64,000 nucleotides of DNA from Panacagrimonas perspica (GTDB lineage Bacteria; Pseudomonadota; Gammaproteobacteria; Nevskiales; Nevskiaceae): positions 186,001 through 250,000 of the forward strand of contig NZ_SOBT01000008.1 in the NCBI RefSeq assembly GCF_004364935.1, written 5' to 3'. A program made the translations under genes and the position numbers. Below, piece after piece: positions 1 through 6,140 of this stretch (the first letter of the stretch is position 1; each line of letters starts with the position of its first letter). Below the pieces are notes generated by a model. The model saw only the letters and a list, made by a program, of their open reading frames with translations, had not been told where the DNA came from and did not search any database.

Positions 1-1098
1 ATCCCGCTGACCCTGGTCGTCTACCTCGTGGGCTGGCCGGTGGACATCACGCCGGTGGCGTGGAATCCGCCGGTCGCGCCCTCGCTGAAGGAAGGCTTCT
101 ACGCGAAGGACGATGCGCTTCGCGGCGTGCAGCGCATCGTCGACGGCGGCCTCGCCGGCCCCGAGGCCATCGCCTTCGACGCGCAGGGCCGGCTGTACAC
201 GGGCCTGTCGGACGGGCGGGTGGTGTCGGTCTCGGCCGACGGCTCCGACTGCCGCGTGCTCGGCAACACCGGCGGCCGGCCGGCCGGGCTGCAGGTGCAG
301 GCCGATGGCAGCCTGGTGATCGCCGATGCGATGAAGGGCCTGCTGCATCTGCGGACCGACGGGACGTTCGATTCCTGGGTGACGGCCGTCGACGGCGTGC
401 CGCTCGGGCTGACCGACGATCTGGCCGTGGACGGGCGCGGGCGCGTGTTCTTCAGCGATGCCTCGTGGAAGTTCGGCCTGCCGGAGCACCGGCTCGATGC
501 CCTCGAGCATGGCGGCCGCGGGCGCCTGATGCTGCACGATCCGGCCAGCAAGGGCTCTGCAACGTTGCTGGCGGATCTGCAGTTCGCCAACGGCGTGGCG
601 CTCGGGCCCGACGAGCAGTTCGTGCTGGTCAACCAGACCACGGATTACCGCATCACGCGCTACTGGATGAAGGGCGAGCGTTCGGGGAAGGTCGAGACGT
701 TCGCCGAGAACCTGCCGGGGTTTCCGGACAACATCACGTTCAACGGCTCCGACCGTTTCTGGGTCGCGCTCTTTGGACCCCGAGATCCGCTCCTCGACAA
801 GCTCGGCCCCATCCCGTTCCTGCGCACGGTGATCGCGCGGTTGCCGATGTCGTGGCTGCCGGACGGCGGTCGCCAGGGCTTCGTGCTCGGGCTGGATCTG
901 GACGGCAAGGTCGTCGAGCAATACCGCTACGACGGGCCGGGTGCGTTCGGGCCGGTCACCAGCGTGCGCGAGCATGACGGCGTGCTGTATCTGGGCAGCC
1001 TCGACGACACGGCGATCGGACGGATCTCGCTGGCCGATCTGCGCAGCGGCGTCGTGAAGGATCCGCCGCCGCCGGTGAAGTCGACCTGCAAGCCGTAG
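1..1098 (+). CDS. SMP-30/strictosidine synthase-like beta-propeller protein (5' end outside window)
   Basis: The frame is open from base 1, so the true start lies upstream; 365 residues are visible. The first visible residues (IPLTLVVYLVGWPVDI) look like the end of an N-terminal membrane anchor. After it come propeller-type repeats such as GPEAIAFDAQGRLYTG, LAVDGRGRVFFSD and FANGVALGPDEQFVLVN. These are typical of the SMP-30/gluconolactonase/strictosidine-synthase superfamily, many of which are lactonases or esterases. The segment NITFNGSDRFWVALFGPRD matches the C-terminal half of strictosidine synthase-like proteins. The substrate cannot be predicted. The TAG stop lies inside the left arm of a hairpin repeat that also reaches the tatD stop, so the two genes converge on it. 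Confidence 0.8.
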   Translation: MPLTLVVYLVGWPVDITPVAWNPPVAPSLKEGFYAKDDALRGVQRIVDGGLAGPEAIAFDAQGRLYTGLSDGRVVSVSADGSDCRVLGNTGGRPAGLQVQADGSLVIADAMKGLLHLRTDGTFDSWVTAVDGVPLGLTDDLAVDGRGRVFFSDASWKFGLPEHRLDALEHGGRGRLMLHDPASKGSATLLADLQFANGVALGPDEQFVLVNQTTDYRITRYWMKGERSGKVETFAENLPGFPDNITFNGSDRFWVALFGPRDPLLDKLGPIPFLRTVIARLPMSWLPDGGRQGFVLGLDLDGKVVEQYRYDGPGAFGPVTSVREHDGVLYLGSLDDTAIGRISLADLRSGVVKDPPPPVKSTCKP

Positions 1099-1172
1099 CC
1101 CTTAACCCGGACGACGTCCGGGAGCTTTTCCGTCAACGGAGAGAGAACCCCCCGGACTTCGTCCGGGCTACG
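1095..1172. repeat. Intergenic hairpin repeat, copy 1 (divergent left arm)
   Basis: Inverted repeat of the window-wide GTAGCCCGG...CCGGGCTAC family. The right arm (1151-1171) is canonical. The left arm is interrupted (GTAGCCCTTAACCCGGACGACGTCCGGG), making this the most diverged full copy. It fills the space between two convergent genes and could act as a bidirectional terminator. Confidence 0.75.
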
Positions 1173-1173
1173 G

Positions 1174-1968
1174 TTACGGCTTGATCCCGAAGAAACACCG
1201 CGCGTTCGACGCCGTGTCGTGCGCCACGTCCGCCGCTTCGCGTCCGCAGGCACGAGCCACGGTCGCGACGACGTAGGGCAGGAACGCCGGCTCGTTGCGA
1301 CGCCCGTCGCGCGGGAGCAGGGCCTTAGGAATCGTGCGCGGCAGCAAATACGGCGCATCGGTCTCCAGCAGCAGCCGATCGCGCGGAATCAGCGGAACGA
1401 TCTCCAGCAGATGCCGGCCGCGTCGCTCGTCGCAGATCCATCCGGTGATGCCGATGTGGCAGTCGAGCGCGAGGTAATCCTCGGCGGCCGCGCGCGTGTC
1501 GGTGAAGCAGTGCACGCAGACCGCGCCGAGGCGATCGCGGTGTTCGCGCAGCATCGCCAGAAAATCCGCATGTGCGTCGCGCTGATGCAGGAACAGCGGC
1601 TTGCCCAGCTCCGCCGCGAGCGCGAGTTGCGCTTCGAAGGCCCTGCGCTGGGCATCGCGCGGAGCCAGATCGCGGAAGTAATCCAGACCGCATTCGCCCA
1701 GCGAGACGAGCGACGGATTCGTCGCGAGTTCGCGGAACAGCGCCTCGTGCGCGGCGTCCCATTCGGCAGCGTGATGCGGATGCAGGCCGGCGGTGGCGAA
1801 CACGCGGCCGCGATGCTGGTGCGCAATCTCGACGGCGCGGCGTGCGCTCTCGGCCGAACTGCCGGTGATCACGATCGCTTCGAGTCCTGCATCCCAGGCG
1901 CGCTGCAGCACGGCGTCACGATCGGCATCGAAACCGTCGTGGGCGAGATTGGCCCCAATGTCGATCAT
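1174..1968 (-). CDS. tatD: TatD family metal-dependent DNase
   Basis: 264-residue TIM-barrel hydrolase of the TatD family (Mg-dependent 3'-5' exonuclease/AP endonuclease, linked to DNA quality control). It has the N-terminal MIDIGANLAHDGF block, TAGLHPHHA, LGECGLDYFRD (metal-ligand Glu), FLHQRDA, CHIGITGWICDERRG and LLETDAPYLLPRTI. It resembles E. coli TatD itself more than YcfH or YjjV at the N-terminus. I start at the ATG at 1968 because it gives the family's canonical first residues; the longer frame upstream encodes only a Pro/Arg-rich run from a hairpin cassette. A near copy of the first 20 bases of the gene lies 107 bp upstream at 2055-2074. It may be read from the HTTM gene upstream. 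Confidence 0.93.
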   Translation of the reverse strand: MIDIGANLAHDGFDADRDAVLQRAWDAGLEAIVITGSSAESARRAVEIAHQHRGRVFATAGLHPHHAAEWDAAHEALFRELATNPSLVSLGECGLDYFRDLAPRDAQRRAFEAQLALAAELGKPLFLHQRDAHADFLAMLREHRDRLGAVCVHCFTDTRAAAEDYLALDCHIGITGWICDERRGRHLLEIVPLIPRDRLLLETDAPYLLPRTIPKALLPRDGRRNEPAFLPYVVATVARACGREAADVAHDTASNARCFFGIKP

Positions 1969-2074
1969 TGGGTCCAATCTCCGGGGGCGGGGCCCCAGCC
2001 CCGCCCGTTCGCCGGGCATCGATTGCCACCGGCAATCGATGAAATCCCCGGCTCACTGGCCCCGATGTCGATCA
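1948..2074. repeat. Hairpin cassette flanked by a 20-bp direct repeat at the tatD start
   Basis: Bases 1948-1967 and 2055-2074 are direct repeats (18 of 20 identical; ATTGGCCCCAATGTCGATCA versus ACTGGCCCCGATGTCGATCA). The downstream copy is the tatD start region read in reverse. Between them are two inverted repeats: GGGCGGGGCCCC/AGCCCCGCCC and ATCGATTGCC/GGCAATCGAT. The arrangement resembles insertion of a small palindromic element with duplication of its target. Confidence 0.6.
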
Positions 2075-2091
2075 CGTGCGGCGCAGCCCGA

Positions 2092-3813
2092 CTACGGTGA
2101 CGATTCTTCTGCGCGGCATTCGTGACGCAGCAGCACGCGTTGCTCGGCGATCTGCGCGCCGGCTTCGCGCACCATCAGCGTGACGCGCACGCGCGCCAGC
2201 GCTTCGGAATGCTGTTCGCACAGGAAGCGCGCGAACGCGAGGCGTTCGATCCGTGCCCCGGGTTGGGCCAGCGCGTTCTCGTACTGGCGGCCACGCTCGC
2301 CGGAAAACCAAGGCAACGTGCTCAGGCCGTAGTTCGGCGGCGGCAGGCTTTCGGACAGGGCATCGACTTCGGTGCCGTTGCTGCGCTCGCCCGGTACGGC
2401 GATCCAGCGCTGTGCCGCACCCGCGGCCGGCAGCAGGTCGATCCACGATCGATCGAGCGCCAGCGGCCTGAGCACGATGCGCGCGCCGCTGGCGAGTGCA
2501 GAGGGCAGTACACCGGCCGCACCGAACTGCACCACGACCAGCAACAGCAGCAACACACTGGCGAGGATGGCGATGCGCGACGAGGTCGCACCGCTCGCGT
2601 CGGTCGGCGAATGTCCTGCGCAGCGACCGGACTTCGCCATTCCGCGGAGGCGCAGCAGCAGGGAACCGAGCGAATTCGCGAACCCGCCGTTCAACAGCCC
2701 GCGCAGCGGGCGCAGCAGCGGAGAGCGGCGCAGCAACATCGCCACCGCGGCGCCGTCCAGGTACGCCTCCTCGTTGCGATCGATGACGATCAGCGATGCG
2801 CCGTTGGCCAGCAGGCGCGAGGCGCGCGGGCTGTCCTGCGCGTTGGCGACCTGCGTGTGCTGCAGGCACAGCAGCTCACGCGCCAGCAGCGCCATGCCCA
2901 GCGCACCCGGCGTGTCGCCATTCGGATGGACCCGCAGATCGGGCAGCGCAGGGTCGCCCGCCAGGCGATCCCACAAGGCGCCGTCGATCAGCAGCGCCCC
3001 AGCCAGCAAGCCCAGCAGCGCGAGCGCGACCGGCGCGACGCTGATCAATGCGAAAGCGCAGAGCAGCACGGCGAACACGAGTGCGGCGCGACGCGCATAC
3101 GGACGCGCCCACGGGACCAGTGCCAGTGGCAGGATCAGCCAGGCCGCGATCCGCAGTCCGATCTCGAGCGTCGGCAACAGGGAAGGCAACTTCACGAGCG
3201 CGCTTCCGGGCAGGTGCGCCGAGGGCGATGACAGCAGCCCGAGCAGGCCCTCGGGCGCATCGGAGGCCAGCGCCAGGCCGATCGGCAGCAGGCAGGCGAA
3301 CAGCAGCAGCGCGATGCCCGGCCACGACAGGTGCGACGGCCCGGGGCGCGCGGGGGCGAACGCGGCGTCGACGCTCCAGCGTGCGTTCCACGGCAGCATC
3401 AGGCCGAACGCGAGCAGGGCCAGCGCGAGGGCGTCGCTTGCATCGAACATCGCCGGATGGCGCGCGATCGCCGATACCAGCAGCAGGCCCAGCAGCGGCC
3501 CGGCGATACGGCTGCGCCAGCCGAGGGCCAGCGCGGTCGCCGCGAGCACCTGCAACAGCGACAGCACGATGGCGAAGAACAGGCCGCCGTTGGCCAGATG
3601 CAGCGACCAGCGGCCGGCCTCGATCGCGCCGATCGCCAGATCGCGCGGCAACAGGCCGTCGTCGGTGTAGAGCAGGCCTGCGTGCAGCAGCCGGCTCAGC
3701 GAATCGATCAGCAGGAAGAGGGCGAGGCCGGCGCGCAGCAGCGCAAGACTGCGCAGATCGACGGCGAGACGGGAGCACAGCGGGTGGGCCGGGCTCGGAG
3801 CAGGAAGGATCAT
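2092..3813 (-). CDS. HTTM-type multi-pass membrane protein with possible degenerate DUF393-like part
   Basis: 573 residues. The N-terminal ~290 residues hold many hydrophobic segments and an LRSLALLRAGLALFLLIDSLSRL opening with HAGLLYTDDGLLPR, which resembles HTTM (vitamin K carboxylase-like membrane) proteins that often carry a C-terminal DUF393 thiol-oxidoreductase-like domain. Residues ~305-400 (LRVHPNGDTPGALG to GGFANSLGSLLLRLRG) may be a worn DUF393-like region, but the usual DGDCxxC motif is not present. One more membrane segment (ILASVLLLLLVVVQFGAAGVL) precedes a polar tail. No enzymatic activity can be claimed. The start at 3813 gives MILPAPSPAHPL; upstream in-frame sequence is not protein-like. 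Confidence 0.72.
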   Translation of the reverse strand: MILPAPSPAHPLCSRLAVDLRSLALLRAGLALFLLIDSLSRLLHAGLLYTDDGLLPRDLAIGAIEAGRWSLHLANGGLFFAIVLSLLQVLAATALALGWRSRIAGPLLGLLLVSAIARHPAMFDASDALALALLAFGLMLPWNARWSVDAAFAPARPGPSHLSWPGIALLLFACLLPIGLALASDAPEGLLGLLSSPSAHLPGSALVKLPSLLPTLEIGLRIAAWLILPLALVPWARPYARRAALVFAVLLCAFALISVAPVALALLGLLAGALLIDGALWDRLAGDPALPDLRVHPNGDTPGALGMALLARELLCLQHTQVANAQDSPRASRLLANGASLIVIDRNEEAYLDGAAVAMLLRRSPLLRPLRGLLNGGFANSLGSLLLRLRGMAKSGRCAGHSPTDASGATSSRIAILASVLLLLLVVVQFGAAGVLPSALASGARIVLRPLALDRSWIDLLPAAGAAQRWIAVPGERSNGTEVDALSESLPPPNYGLSTLPWFSGERGRQYENALAQPGARIERLAFARFLCEQHSEALARVRVTLMVREAGAQIAEQRVLLRHECRAEESSP

Positions 3814-4098
3814 GGGGGGACGACAAAGCGAGCGGAGCAAGGCTCGCCGCTTCCGCCTCAAACGGCAAGGGGCAATCGTGCGAGCTGCCTGCTGCGGACG
3901 GGACAGGCGGCAACGGCTTCTCTCCGGGCGCAGCGCGCGCAAGGCGTCGGCCGATCGGCCGGCTCCATCCGGAGCAGGCCGCGGGCGAACGCGCTGCGAC
4001 GGCGGCAACGACCGGAAGATGTTCGGAATTCTCCGCGAGTCGCAGGACAGCCGGGTTAGACTCTCGCCGCCGAAAGACACACGGTTCCAAACGCCCCC

Positions 4099-4674
4099 AT
4101 GCACGCTCGCGCCATCGCTGCCGCCCTGCTGTGGATGACCGCGCCCCTGGGAGTCCACGCAGGCGATTCCGACACGCGCTACATCAGCGACGAGACCGCC
4201 GTGACGCTGCGCGAAGACAAGGGGATGAGCGCGCCGGTCGCTGCGCTGCTCAAATCCGGCGCCAAGGTGCAGTTGCTCGAGAACGACGCCGACAGCGGCT
4301 ACTCGCGCGTGAAAGTTGCGCCCGGTCGTGATGGCTGGGTGCTGACGCGCTACCTGTCGACCGAGCCCGCTGCGCGCGAGCGGCTGGCCGCCACGTTGTC
4401 GGAGTTGACGCAACAGCAGGCGATGGTGCGAAAGCTCGAATCCGAAAACCTGCGGCTGCGCGAGTCCGCGAAGAAGACCGGTGCTCCGGCGCCGGTCGTC
4501 GCCGCGGTCGAATCGCCGGTGATGGCGGGCCCCGGAAGCAGCACGCTGAGCCAGGGTTCCGACGCCGTGTTGATGGGGACCGGCGCGGGCCTGTTCATCG
4601 CCGGCCTGTTGACCGGCTTGCTGATCCCGATGATCCGGCGCACGCGGTCGCCGCGCTGGGGCACGCAGTCTTGA
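4099..4674 (+). CDS. SH3 and anchor domain envelope protein (TIGR04211/YgiM-like)
   Basis: 191 residues: a signal peptide (about residues 1-21, ending VHAG), a bacterial SH3 domain at ~25-95 (YISDETAVTLREDKG, VQLLENDADSGYSRVKV, GWVLTRYLS), a short coiled coil (~95-130, LSELTQQQAMVRKLESENLRL), and a C-terminal membrane segment (GTGAGLFIAGLLTGLLIPM) followed by RRTR. This is the architecture of the YgiM/TIGR04211 family: exported SH3 domain tethered by a C-terminal anchor. The exact role is unknown. Its TGA stop overlaps the TTG start of the next gene. Confidence 0.88.
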   Translation: MHARAIAAALLWMTAPLGVHAGDSDTRYISDETAVTLREDKGMSAPVAALLKSGAKVQLLENDADSGYSRVKVAPGRDGWVLTRYLSTEPAARERLAATLSELTQQQAMVRKLESENLRLRESAKKTGAPAPVVAAVESPVMAGPGSSTLSQGSDAVLMGTGAGLFIAGLLTGLLIPMIRRTRSPRWGTQS

Positions 4675-5330
4675 GTCCGCTTGCGGCATTGCCCAACGCG
4701 GGCGAGTCCGCGCTGGGTACGCTGGCCGGACCCGCAGGCGATCTCGAATGCTTCGTGGCGGTGCCGCGCGGCGAGATTCGCGGCATCGCGGTGGCGTGCC
4801 ATCCGCATCCGCTCTATGGCGGCGCGATGAGCAACAAGGTGGTCTACGCGCTGGCGTCCGCCGCGCTCGCGCAGGGACTGGTCGCGGCGCGATTCAATTT
4901 TCGTGGGGTCGGGCAGAGCACGGGCACCTACGACGCAGCGCGTGGCGAGACCGACGATTGCCTGGCCGTCGTCGATTGGCTGCGCGCGCAGCAGCCCGGC
5001 CTGCCGTTGCTGCTCGCGGGTTTCTCATTCGGCGCGTATGTGAGTCTCAAGGCGGCCGCGACGGCGCAACCGGCGGCGCTCGTCAGCATCGCGCCGCCGT
5101 TCGGCCGATATTTCGATGACGCCGAGCTGCCGCCGCACCCGGGTTGTCGCTGGCTCGCGGTCCACTCGCGCGACGACGACACCGTGTCTTACGACGAGAC
5201 CGCCGCGATCCTGCGCGACTACGACCCGGCGCCGACGCTCGTCACCGTGGATGGCGCGGGGCATTTCTTCCATGGCCGTCTGCAGGACATCAAGGAAGCC
5301 GTGGCACCGTTCCTGCAGGAGCTGTTCTGA
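4671..5330 (+). CDS. Alpha/beta hydrolase of the COG2945 type
   Basis: 219-residue serine hydrolase-like protein. It shows HPHPLYGGAMSNKVVY, FNFRGVGQSTG, the nucleophile elbow AGFSFGAY, and a late GHFFHG block carrying the likely catalytic His; HSRDDDTVSYD supplies the likely acid. This is the COG2945 family of predicted cytoplasmic alpha/beta hydrolases, whose substrate is unknown. The start is TTG at 4671, giving MSPLAALPNAG, and it overlaps the preceding TGA as TTGA. No ATG lies before the conserved HPHP block in this frame, so the TTG start is well supported. Confidence 0.9.
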   Translation: MSPLAALPNAGESALGTLAGPAGDLECFVAVPRGEIRGIAVACHPHPLYGGAMSNKVVYALASAALAQGLVAARFNFRGVGQSTGTYDAARGETDDCLAVVDWLRAQQPGLPLLLAGFSFGAYVSLKAAATAQPAALVSIAPPFGRYFDDAELPPHPGCRWLAVHSRDDDTVSYDETAAILRDYDPAPTLVTVDGAGHFFHGRLQDIKEAVAPFLQELF

Positions 5331-5420
5331 CGCGAGTGACATCGTCCCCCCGCATGTCCGCGCGGGGTGCATCGTGGCGCCTCATCCCTATACTGGCGGC
5401 AACCCGAACCCGGAGCCGAC

Positions 5421-6140
5421 ATGCGCCAACTTCCCGTTCTTGCCGTTGCCTCGCTGCTCCTGCTGTCGCCGACTGCCGAGGCGGTCGATTTCGACTTCGA
5501 GATCCAGCCGGGTGCGACGCAGCAGGACTTCAAGACGGTCGTCAAGGATGTCGCGGCAATCCTGAATTCCAAATCGCTGACTCCGGCGGAGCCTTACGGC
5601 GTAACCGGGTTTGGTCTGGGCGTCTATGCGTCGTACGTCGAGACCGATGATCCGCGCGCCTGGCAGCGACTCACCGGCGAGGACATCGACGAGATCGGCA
5701 TGGTGGGCCTGGTCGCCCAGAAGGGTCTGCCGTTCGGCATCGACGTGGGTGCGAGCTACGCCTGGGTGCCCGGCGCGGACGCCAGGTTGTTCGGTGCCGA
5801 GATCCGCTACGCGCTGCTCGACGGCGGCGTGGCCACCCCTGCCATCGGCCTGCGCGGCAGCTACTCGAAGCTCAGCGGCATCGACGACATCGACAACGAC
5901 TCGTACGGAATCGACATGTCGATCTCCAAGGGCATCGGCCCGTTGACGCCGTACGCCGGCGTCGGCCACGTGTGGAGCAAGTTCGAGGTCGATCCGCAGT
6001 TCGGGCTGGACGACGAGGATGTCGACGACACGCGGTTCTTCCTCGGCCTGCGCCTGTCCGCGCTGTTCGGCATCACGCCCGAGTACGAACGTATCGGCGA
6101 TCGCGACGTCTTCAACCTGCGTGTCGGATTCGCGTTCTGA
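5421..6140 (+). CDS. YfaZ-like outer membrane beta-barrel protein
   Basis: 239 residues with a clear signal peptide (MRQLPVLAVASLLLLSPTAEA) and then alternating amphipathic strands with many Gly/Tyr/Asp turns, ending in the outer-membrane signature VGFAF with C-terminal Phe. Segments such as FGLGVYASYVETD, VGASYAWVPGADARLFGAEIRYALLDGG and TPYAGVGHVWSKFEVD fit a small barrel of the YfaZ type. Function unknown. The ATG at 5421 is chosen because it gives the signal peptide directly; the upstream 18 in-frame codons do not. Confidence 0.8.
   Translation: MRQLPVLAVASLLLLSPTAEAVDFDFEIQPGATQQDFKTVVKDVAAILNSKSLTPAEPYGVTGFGLGVYASYVETDDPRAWQRLTGEDIDEIGMVGLVAQKGLPFGIDVGASYAWVPGADARLFGAEIRYALLDGGVATPAIGLRGSYSKLSGIDDIDNDSYGIDMSISKGIGPLTPYAGVGHVWSKFEVDPQFGLDDEDVDDTRFFLGLRLSALFGITPEYERIGDRDVFNLRVGFAF

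Follow-up and report, generated by a model that had tools for sequence, protein, structure and literature searches.

The locus lies near the beginning of a 64,000-nucleotide stretch of Panacagrimonas perspica DNA (the window, whose positions are used throughout), where a minus-strand gene at 1174-1968 is identified as tatD by Pfam TatD_DNase (E=6.1e-67); the NCBIfam TatD models also match it, but under their curated cut-offs. An earlier note had reported a near-perfect 20-bp direct repeat at the start of this gene, and the sequence and a repeat finder bear this out: 1948-1967 and 2055-2074 agree at 18 of 20 positions (17 of 18 in the repeat finder's core, 1950-1967 and 2057-2074), lie 107 bp apart and enclose 87 bp of hairpin DNA. 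The same note described the insert as two strong inverted repeats; its hairpin nature is retained here, but with three hairpins instead of two. These are HP0 (1945-1960 with 1966-1981, 15 of 16 paired), whose left arm lies inside tatD and whose loop is entered by the tatD-start copy of the repeat, HP1 (1985-1993 with 1998-2006) and HP2 (2011-2027 with 2031-2052). Measured against dinucleotide shuffles, the fold of 1945-2057 as plus-strand DNA has z = -8.66 and that of 1935-2095 as minus-strand RNA has z = -4.96. The possible older GTG start that had been suggested at 2075 is present at 2075-2073 and opens a frame of 36 codons. The features of the locus, with the evidence for each, are as follows.

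1174-1968, minus strand: tatD, TatD-family DNase, functional start ATG 1968-1966 (Pfam, NCBIfam)
1948-1967: direct repeat, functional copy, which is the tatD start (sequence, repeat finder, flank controls)
2055-2074: direct repeat, remnant of the native tatD start; reads as a tatD start, GTG ATC GAC ATC GGG GCC, and resembles the starts of element-free relatives
1945-1960: HP0 left arm, in tatD, -5 to +11 around the junction (repeat finder, arm scoring, fold)
1966-1981: HP0 right arm, which matches the tatD start in reverse complement at 15/16 (repeat finder, arm scoring, fold)
1985-2006: HP1, core GGGGC-CCCA-GCCCC (fold, covariation, locus comparison)
2011-2052: HP2, with an asymmetric GAAAY bulge and many compensatory changes (fold, covariation)
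2054-2057, plus strand: CACT element end; the second gene-start copy begins here, and the T can be assigned to either (alignment, flanks)
1965-2075, minus strand: 36-codon open frame from the old GTG through the element, its TGA (1967-1965) overlapping the tatD ATG (frame reading)
1978-2057, plus strand: matched by R1, the covariance model of the family, at 98.4 bits; the seed of R1 includes this copy (covariance model)

Between 1900 and 2200 neither an intrinsic terminator nor a sigma-70 promoter was found, and Rfam 15 gave no match at curated score in window 1-6000, the sole match being 4465-4525 at E=0.87. The direct repeat scores 31, a value reached or exceeded by 3 of 1924 control pairs of left and right flanks from different target genes; in an earlier control of 429 flank pairs, which included some pairs from the same target, the 95% point was 23 and the 99% point 44.

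At the other end of tatD, between this gene and the one ending at 1098, window 1095-1175 holds two inverted GTAG-type palindromes (GTAGCCC...CCGGAC..GTCCGG), and a similar palindrome lies 3' of another gene of the same genome (L262). By its sequence this looks like an ordinary REP pair with no relation to the tatD insert.

A family of hairpin elements in Nevskiaceae

The earlier note had called for a search for the same cassette elsewhere, and the cassette turns up again both within this genome and in numerous relatives. BLAST with 141 bases found a second copy in the own genome (G000) just 3' of lysS, again placed between two gene-end copies, here identical at 27 of 27 positions. A search of 61 genomes returned further copies mixed with many short chance matches. 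We aligned 22 copies (alignment A1, on which our pair counts and our statements on tags and hairpins are based). Of its 28 base pairs, 18 have changed on both sides, a number reached in none of 500 shuffles; covariation is 0.450 as opposed to 0.130 in the shuffles (0/500 as high) and at most 0.090 with slid partners, while the observed number of further pair types is reached by 2 of 500 shuffles. The structure of the element is kept through compensatory changes. Each unit consists of an arm, HP1, HP2 and a CACT or CAGT end, together about 75-90 bp.

The covariance model R1 matched at least 35 of 80 genomes, the own included, at E up to 0.001: at least 34 of the 49 genomes of the own family as against at least 1 of the 31 others, with at least three matches in the window's own genome. 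These counts are lower bounds, 58 first-look candidates having been scored in each genome. A strict HP2 pattern is present in 13 stretches from named genomes, assigned to Panacagrimonas, Solimonas, Nevskia and 'Nevskiaceae bacterium'; Panacagrimonas and Solimonas belong to Nevskiaceae in the NCBI taxonomy, and we take the own family to be Nevskiaceae on the strength of these named records. A phage origin was considered and set aside: a loose HP2 pattern occurs in 22 viral contigs, yet R1 gives no match at E up to 0.1 in any of these. Our literature search, limited to openly licensed papers, found no description of this hairpin family.

The lower-scoring R1 matches include a related subfamily with a CACC end (L138, L139, L140, L142, L149), which carries GCCATCCATGGC-like palindromes in or upstream of HP1; the flanking repeat of L149 (score 35) resembles a transcription terminator. 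At the tatD locus of G021 (L031, 2339-2450) an extra nested palindrome in HP1 lengthens the insert, and the leader frame still ends at tatD +1.

Two kinds of insertion site

Copies of the first kind lie between two copies of a gene end, at the start of tatD and at the ends of lysS, rpoD, leuC and the 4a-hydroxytetrahydrobiopterin dehydratase gene (lysS and tatD of other genomes were named by sequence likeness). The layout is constant: the gene body stands on the HP1 side and the gene-end copy adjoining it is functional, while the far copy, the remnant, starts right after the CACT end. The repeats measure 18 bp at tatD, 27 bp at lysS of G000 and about 35 bp at the pterin dehydratase, and are longer at leuC. 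Flank scores are 46-59 at rpoD (L124), leuC (L126, L129) and the pterin dehydratase (L079), with a control maximum of 33 (n=1924). At rpoD of G071 (L127) the gene ends are alike at the protein level (LRSFLDE) but not at the DNA level, and the score of 13 lies inside the control range; judged from the sequence, this divergence is greater than would be expected of a young duplication. By eye, the codons of the functional rpoD and leuC ends (L127, L126, L129) look unusual beside those of the remnant, as if recoded or imported. Units are also found head to tail, three at tatD in G063 and two in G066, and at lysS three complete and one partial in G063 and two in G070.

The second kind, with many copies, has no repeat. 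Here the CACT/CAGT end abuts the gene end and supplies or overlaps its TGA, which is in frame in 14 of the 15 copies examined in G001 and G002 (a count that omits inner tandem units, L070, L131, L150 and L151). The sole out-of-frame copy is L074, where the host gene stops 4 nt earlier. The adjoining genes include TypA, PurH, EF-P and a SlyD-like isomerase, and both kinds occur at rpoD (L124 and L127 with, L134 without a repeat). The sequence ACTGA is present in 3 of the 10 ortholog rows that could be read out of 15, so that in many cases the element itself may have provided the stop.

Empty and occupied sites

Comparison of the tatD upstream regions of relatives, which had been proposed as a check, reveals empty sites: 26 of the 32 tatD loci examined lack the element. 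The six occupied loci belong to four genera (G000, G001, G002, G021, G063, G066). The 32 loci comprise 30 of the 59 genomes with a tatD search match, plus L122 and L128; R1 was run on all of them, and a pattern view covered 29 of the 30 genomes (all except G028). In the window's genus each of the three genomes has a copy at tatD, and two of these copies are decayed: that of G001, which is in the opposite orientation, and that of G002, which the model matches at E=0.028.

At the end of lysS, which was read in the 28 of 80 genomes with a pattern match there, six genomes have the element (G000, G001, G018, G028, G063, G070) and 20 are empty. In G018 the lysS body and the element are on separate contigs, and the contig of G028 holds the last lysS codons only. 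G033 has a 66-bp remnant that terminates in the element's CACT end. The lysS end of G024 (L182) holds a different hairpin insert between two gene-end copies; from its sequence, the site seems to have been used there by another hairpin element. Within 200 nt downstream of the 20 empty lysS ends, neither CGGAAA nor the arm is present. We also looked for a larger version of the element at lysS: in the 28 genomes no gene-end pair stands wider apart than the small inserts, and two extra matches in G020 are located in other sequence.

An inverted arm that matches the host gene

Just before HP1 lies an arm that is reverse-complementary to the host gene sequence spanning the junction. At 9 of 15 scorable loci (tatD, lysS, leuC) it occurs in nearly constant register and scores above the maximum of 8 for cross-locus pairings (n=186, 10 void); shuffles reach at most 10 (n=3200, 200 void), a value which the three lysS scores of 10 equal but do not exceed. 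The void controls are due to the contig end in G018, whose lysS lies outside the 15 scored loci and whose arm was seen by eye. The scores are 13.5, 11, 11.5 and 14 at tatD, 10, 10 and 10 at lysS, and 11 and 11 at leuC. At the other six loci the arm is absent or weak: tatD of G002 (4), rpoD (4 and 6.5), L079 (4) and lysS of G063 (7.5) and G028 (8). In the four strong tatD arms the paired part consists of the own host's tatD codons, with one mismatch in G000. The outer end of the arm pairs at -5 at these four loci and at lysS of G000, G001, G070 and G028, at -6 at lysS of G063 and at -3 in leuC.

At lysS the arm pairs with a leucine codon that is CTT in 8 of 8 insert-bearing genes vs 2 of 20 empty ones (one-sided Fisher 1.4e-5, the relatedness of the genomes not being corrected for), and CTT is rare in lysS bodies, 20 of 732 leucine codons counted. 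The eight are G000, G001, G018, G024, G028, G033, G063 and G070, the insert of G024 being of the other hairpin kind. Either such hosts get invaded, or the element rewrites the sequence, or pairing maintains it. A long import of lysS by homologous recombination was rejected: in six alignable carriers the stretch 20-60 bp before the junction is matched best by a genome of the carrier's own genus in three cases (G070, G063, G000) and by a non-carrier from another genus in three (G001, G033, G018).

The two conserved hairpins differ in how they are distributed. In 19 copies hand-picked from 80, HP1 copies from the same locus in different genera have a similarity of 0.796 (n=18 pairs), as against 0.598 (n=46) for copies from different loci of a single genus, a difference which none of 2000 label permutations matched; HP2 shows the opposite tendency (same locus 0.681, same genus 0.763; 1752 of 2000 permutations). 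Thus, HP1 follows the target, and HP2 the genome. Taken as a sequence pattern, the locus dependence of HP1 would fit both homing lineages and old vertical descent.

How the element may insert and persist

We propose, with a probability of about 70%, that the insert is a non-autonomous mobile hairpin element of about 75-90 bp, almost solely confined to Nevskiaceae, which inserts at conserved gene ends and duplicates them. The distribution of copies suggests that the element has moved. At tatD, lysS, rpoD, leuC and the pterin dehydratase the second gene-end copy leaves the gene intact. The earlier note had proposed a small mobile element with target duplication, and the empty sites and the additional copies support this reading. 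Plain duplication is insufficient, since an inverted copy of the target also spans the junction at tatD, lysS and leuC. The element would act as folded single-stranded DNA, its CACT end becoming joined to a fixed point of the target; repair synthesis would then copy the gene end, snap back and copy the target from about -5, which would generate HP0. Unequal exchange between the direct repeats would produce the arrays of two to three complete units. A single mechanism may fail to account for both kinds of site, because many copies directly follow a stop codon without any repeat.

At tatD the frame of the old start is open through the element and ends at +1 of the next start in five of six cases: G000, G001, G002 (with TTG), G021 and G066 (at the start of the next unit). 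In the sixth, G063, it stops 5 nt before the next start. Ribosomes from the old tatD start would translate across the hairpins and terminate at the next start or shortly ahead of it, so that translation stays coupled; this would explain why the insert is tolerated, and we infer that tolerated insertions are those which preserve translational coupling.

The hairpins could instead be old, vertically inherited regulatory structures: ancestral insertions kept for a role at gene ends and mostly lost by repeat slippage, with arm pairing under selection. The likeness of HP1 copies by locus across genera speaks for this, as do the unusual features common to the lysS copies of G000 and G001 and the presence of a tatD copy, twice decayed, throughout the window's genus. 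However, the tatD and lysS ends examined in other genera are mostly empty, yet single genomes hold arrays of up to three units. Orientation relative to transcription is opposite at lysS and tatD, which makes a common RNA function hard to see, and direct repeats of such size so close together are expected to be lost quickly. We regard vertical descent as possible but rather improbable.

A similarly doubtful candidate is an element of the REP/IS200-IS605 type, whose tag a Y1 (HUH) transposase would recognise by the hairpin, the stop-codon copies (ACTGA/AGTGA, no target duplication) being its normal insertions. The element does abut the gene end with an in-frame TGA at 14 of the 15 G001 and G002 copies counted above, and base pairing of the tag to the HP2 foot shows a compensatory change (columns 33-82: CG 13, GC 9). 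On the other hand, the 3 of 10 ortholog rows with ACTGA indicate that the tag may belong to the element, and the gene-end repeats are left unexplained. Y1 transposases are missing from 3 of 15 element-bearing genomes (G003, G023, G066), and R1, run on 30 of 37 Y1 places, found none flanked on both sides, so that a Y1 enzyme was rejected as partner. A reverse transcriptase was likewise rejected: RVT_1 is present in 3 of 13 element-bearing genomes and absent from G000. The Y1 and RVT_1 searches linked no transposase, reverse transcriptase or parent element to the hairpin element. In G008 about 1.1 kb separates one copy (L238) from a Y1 gene, and slightly less than 1 kb further along follows another Y1 gene; a weak R1 match at L236 (E=0.057) is closer to a Y1 gene than that of L238.

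Site-specific integration by a recombinase acting in trans, in which the element brings its own version of the gene end to replace that of the host, as integrative elements do, appears unlikely. It would account for functional and remnant ends that differ mainly synonymously at rpoD (L127) and leuC (L126, L129), for the residues that differ between the two tatD starts of G063 and for the repeated use of the same position. The element has no integrase gene, however, the spacer of the inverted arm varies from 5 to more than 30 nt, unlike recombinase core sites, and elsewhere the repeats do not differ from the host copy (27/27 at lysS of G000).

Quite improbable, in our view, is that the arm serves as a guide, each lineage of the element pairing through its arm with its own gene end across the insertion point, homing there in new species and converting the few paired bases. 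This draws on the CTT codon (8/8 vs 2/20), though at least three lysS bodies look native to about 20 bp from the junction; if it were true, some 90 bp of DNA that encode no protein would make up a homing element directed by a guide. Chance or an assembly artefact, for which one could cite the GC-rich sequence and the 3 of 1924 control pairs that reach the window's repeat score, is scarcely credible given that other genera show this structure at the same gene, where the arms contain host sequence.

If a mobile hairpin element is the right reading, a small element copes with landing in conserved genes by means of a second gene-end copy, and the positions it uses recur in several genera. With its near-fixed register, the host-matched arm offers a direct test of how target sequence is written into, or read by, a tiny element. 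For annotation there is a warning: a number of tatD starts and lysS stops occur in duplicate in this family, so that start-site calls and repeat-based typing can err.

Comparison with known systems

Some integrative elements use gene ends as attachment sites, restore the gene end and leave two gene-end copies. The hairpin element resembles them in using the same sites in different genera, in the restored gene end and in the two copies; it differs in being about 90 bp long, without integrase or cargo, and at tatD each unit measures 77-149 bp from start to start, which is too short for an integrase gene. Bacterial MITEs are short and non-autonomous and are flanked by direct repeats of target DNA, usually of a few bases. 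The hairpin element shares these traits, but its repeats are far longer (18 bp at tatD, 27 bp at lysS of G000, about 35 bp at the pterin dehydratase). MITEs have terminal inverted repeats that match a parent insertion sequence; the alignment of the 22 copies of A1 shows no terminal inverted repeats. For a retroelement inserted by target-primed reverse transcription one would look for a resident reverse transcriptase, and RVT_1 is present in 3 of 13 carriers.

The MIRUs of mycobacteria are short repeats at gene boundaries, variable in tandem number, whose frame links one start to the next and whose target is a DTGA site with a 4-bp duplication. The overlap of a stop with the next start is a common trait, found at the tatD copies only (five of six at +1, the sixth 5 nt before). 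Instead of the 4-bp DTGA duplication, tatD has an 18-bp repeat, and the hairpin element comes with a pair of gene ends, each some 18 bp or longer, as well as an inverted arm and conserved base pairing.

For known kinds of element we drew on passages of PMC3733652, PMC12306157 and PMC6006769. In the passages concerned, REPs are small dispersed, non-autonomous palindromes, as is the present element, and those with GTAG or CGTC tags measure 20-40 bp, carry a 4-base tag and form mainly head-to-head dimers (PMC3733652). The tatD-type element consists of two hairpins of about 75 bp in all, forms head-to-tail arrays and has a target-matched arm and gene-end copies at some loci. In A1 (22 copies) the two hairpins are conserved and neither a GTAG nor a CGTC tag is conserved at the hairpin foot; as to a REPtron, the 30 of 37 Y1 (RAYT) places scanned showed no flanking on both sides. 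The nearest kinds are REPs in nature and MIRUs in gene-boundary behaviour, and from each of them the hairpin element differs in at least one defining feature.
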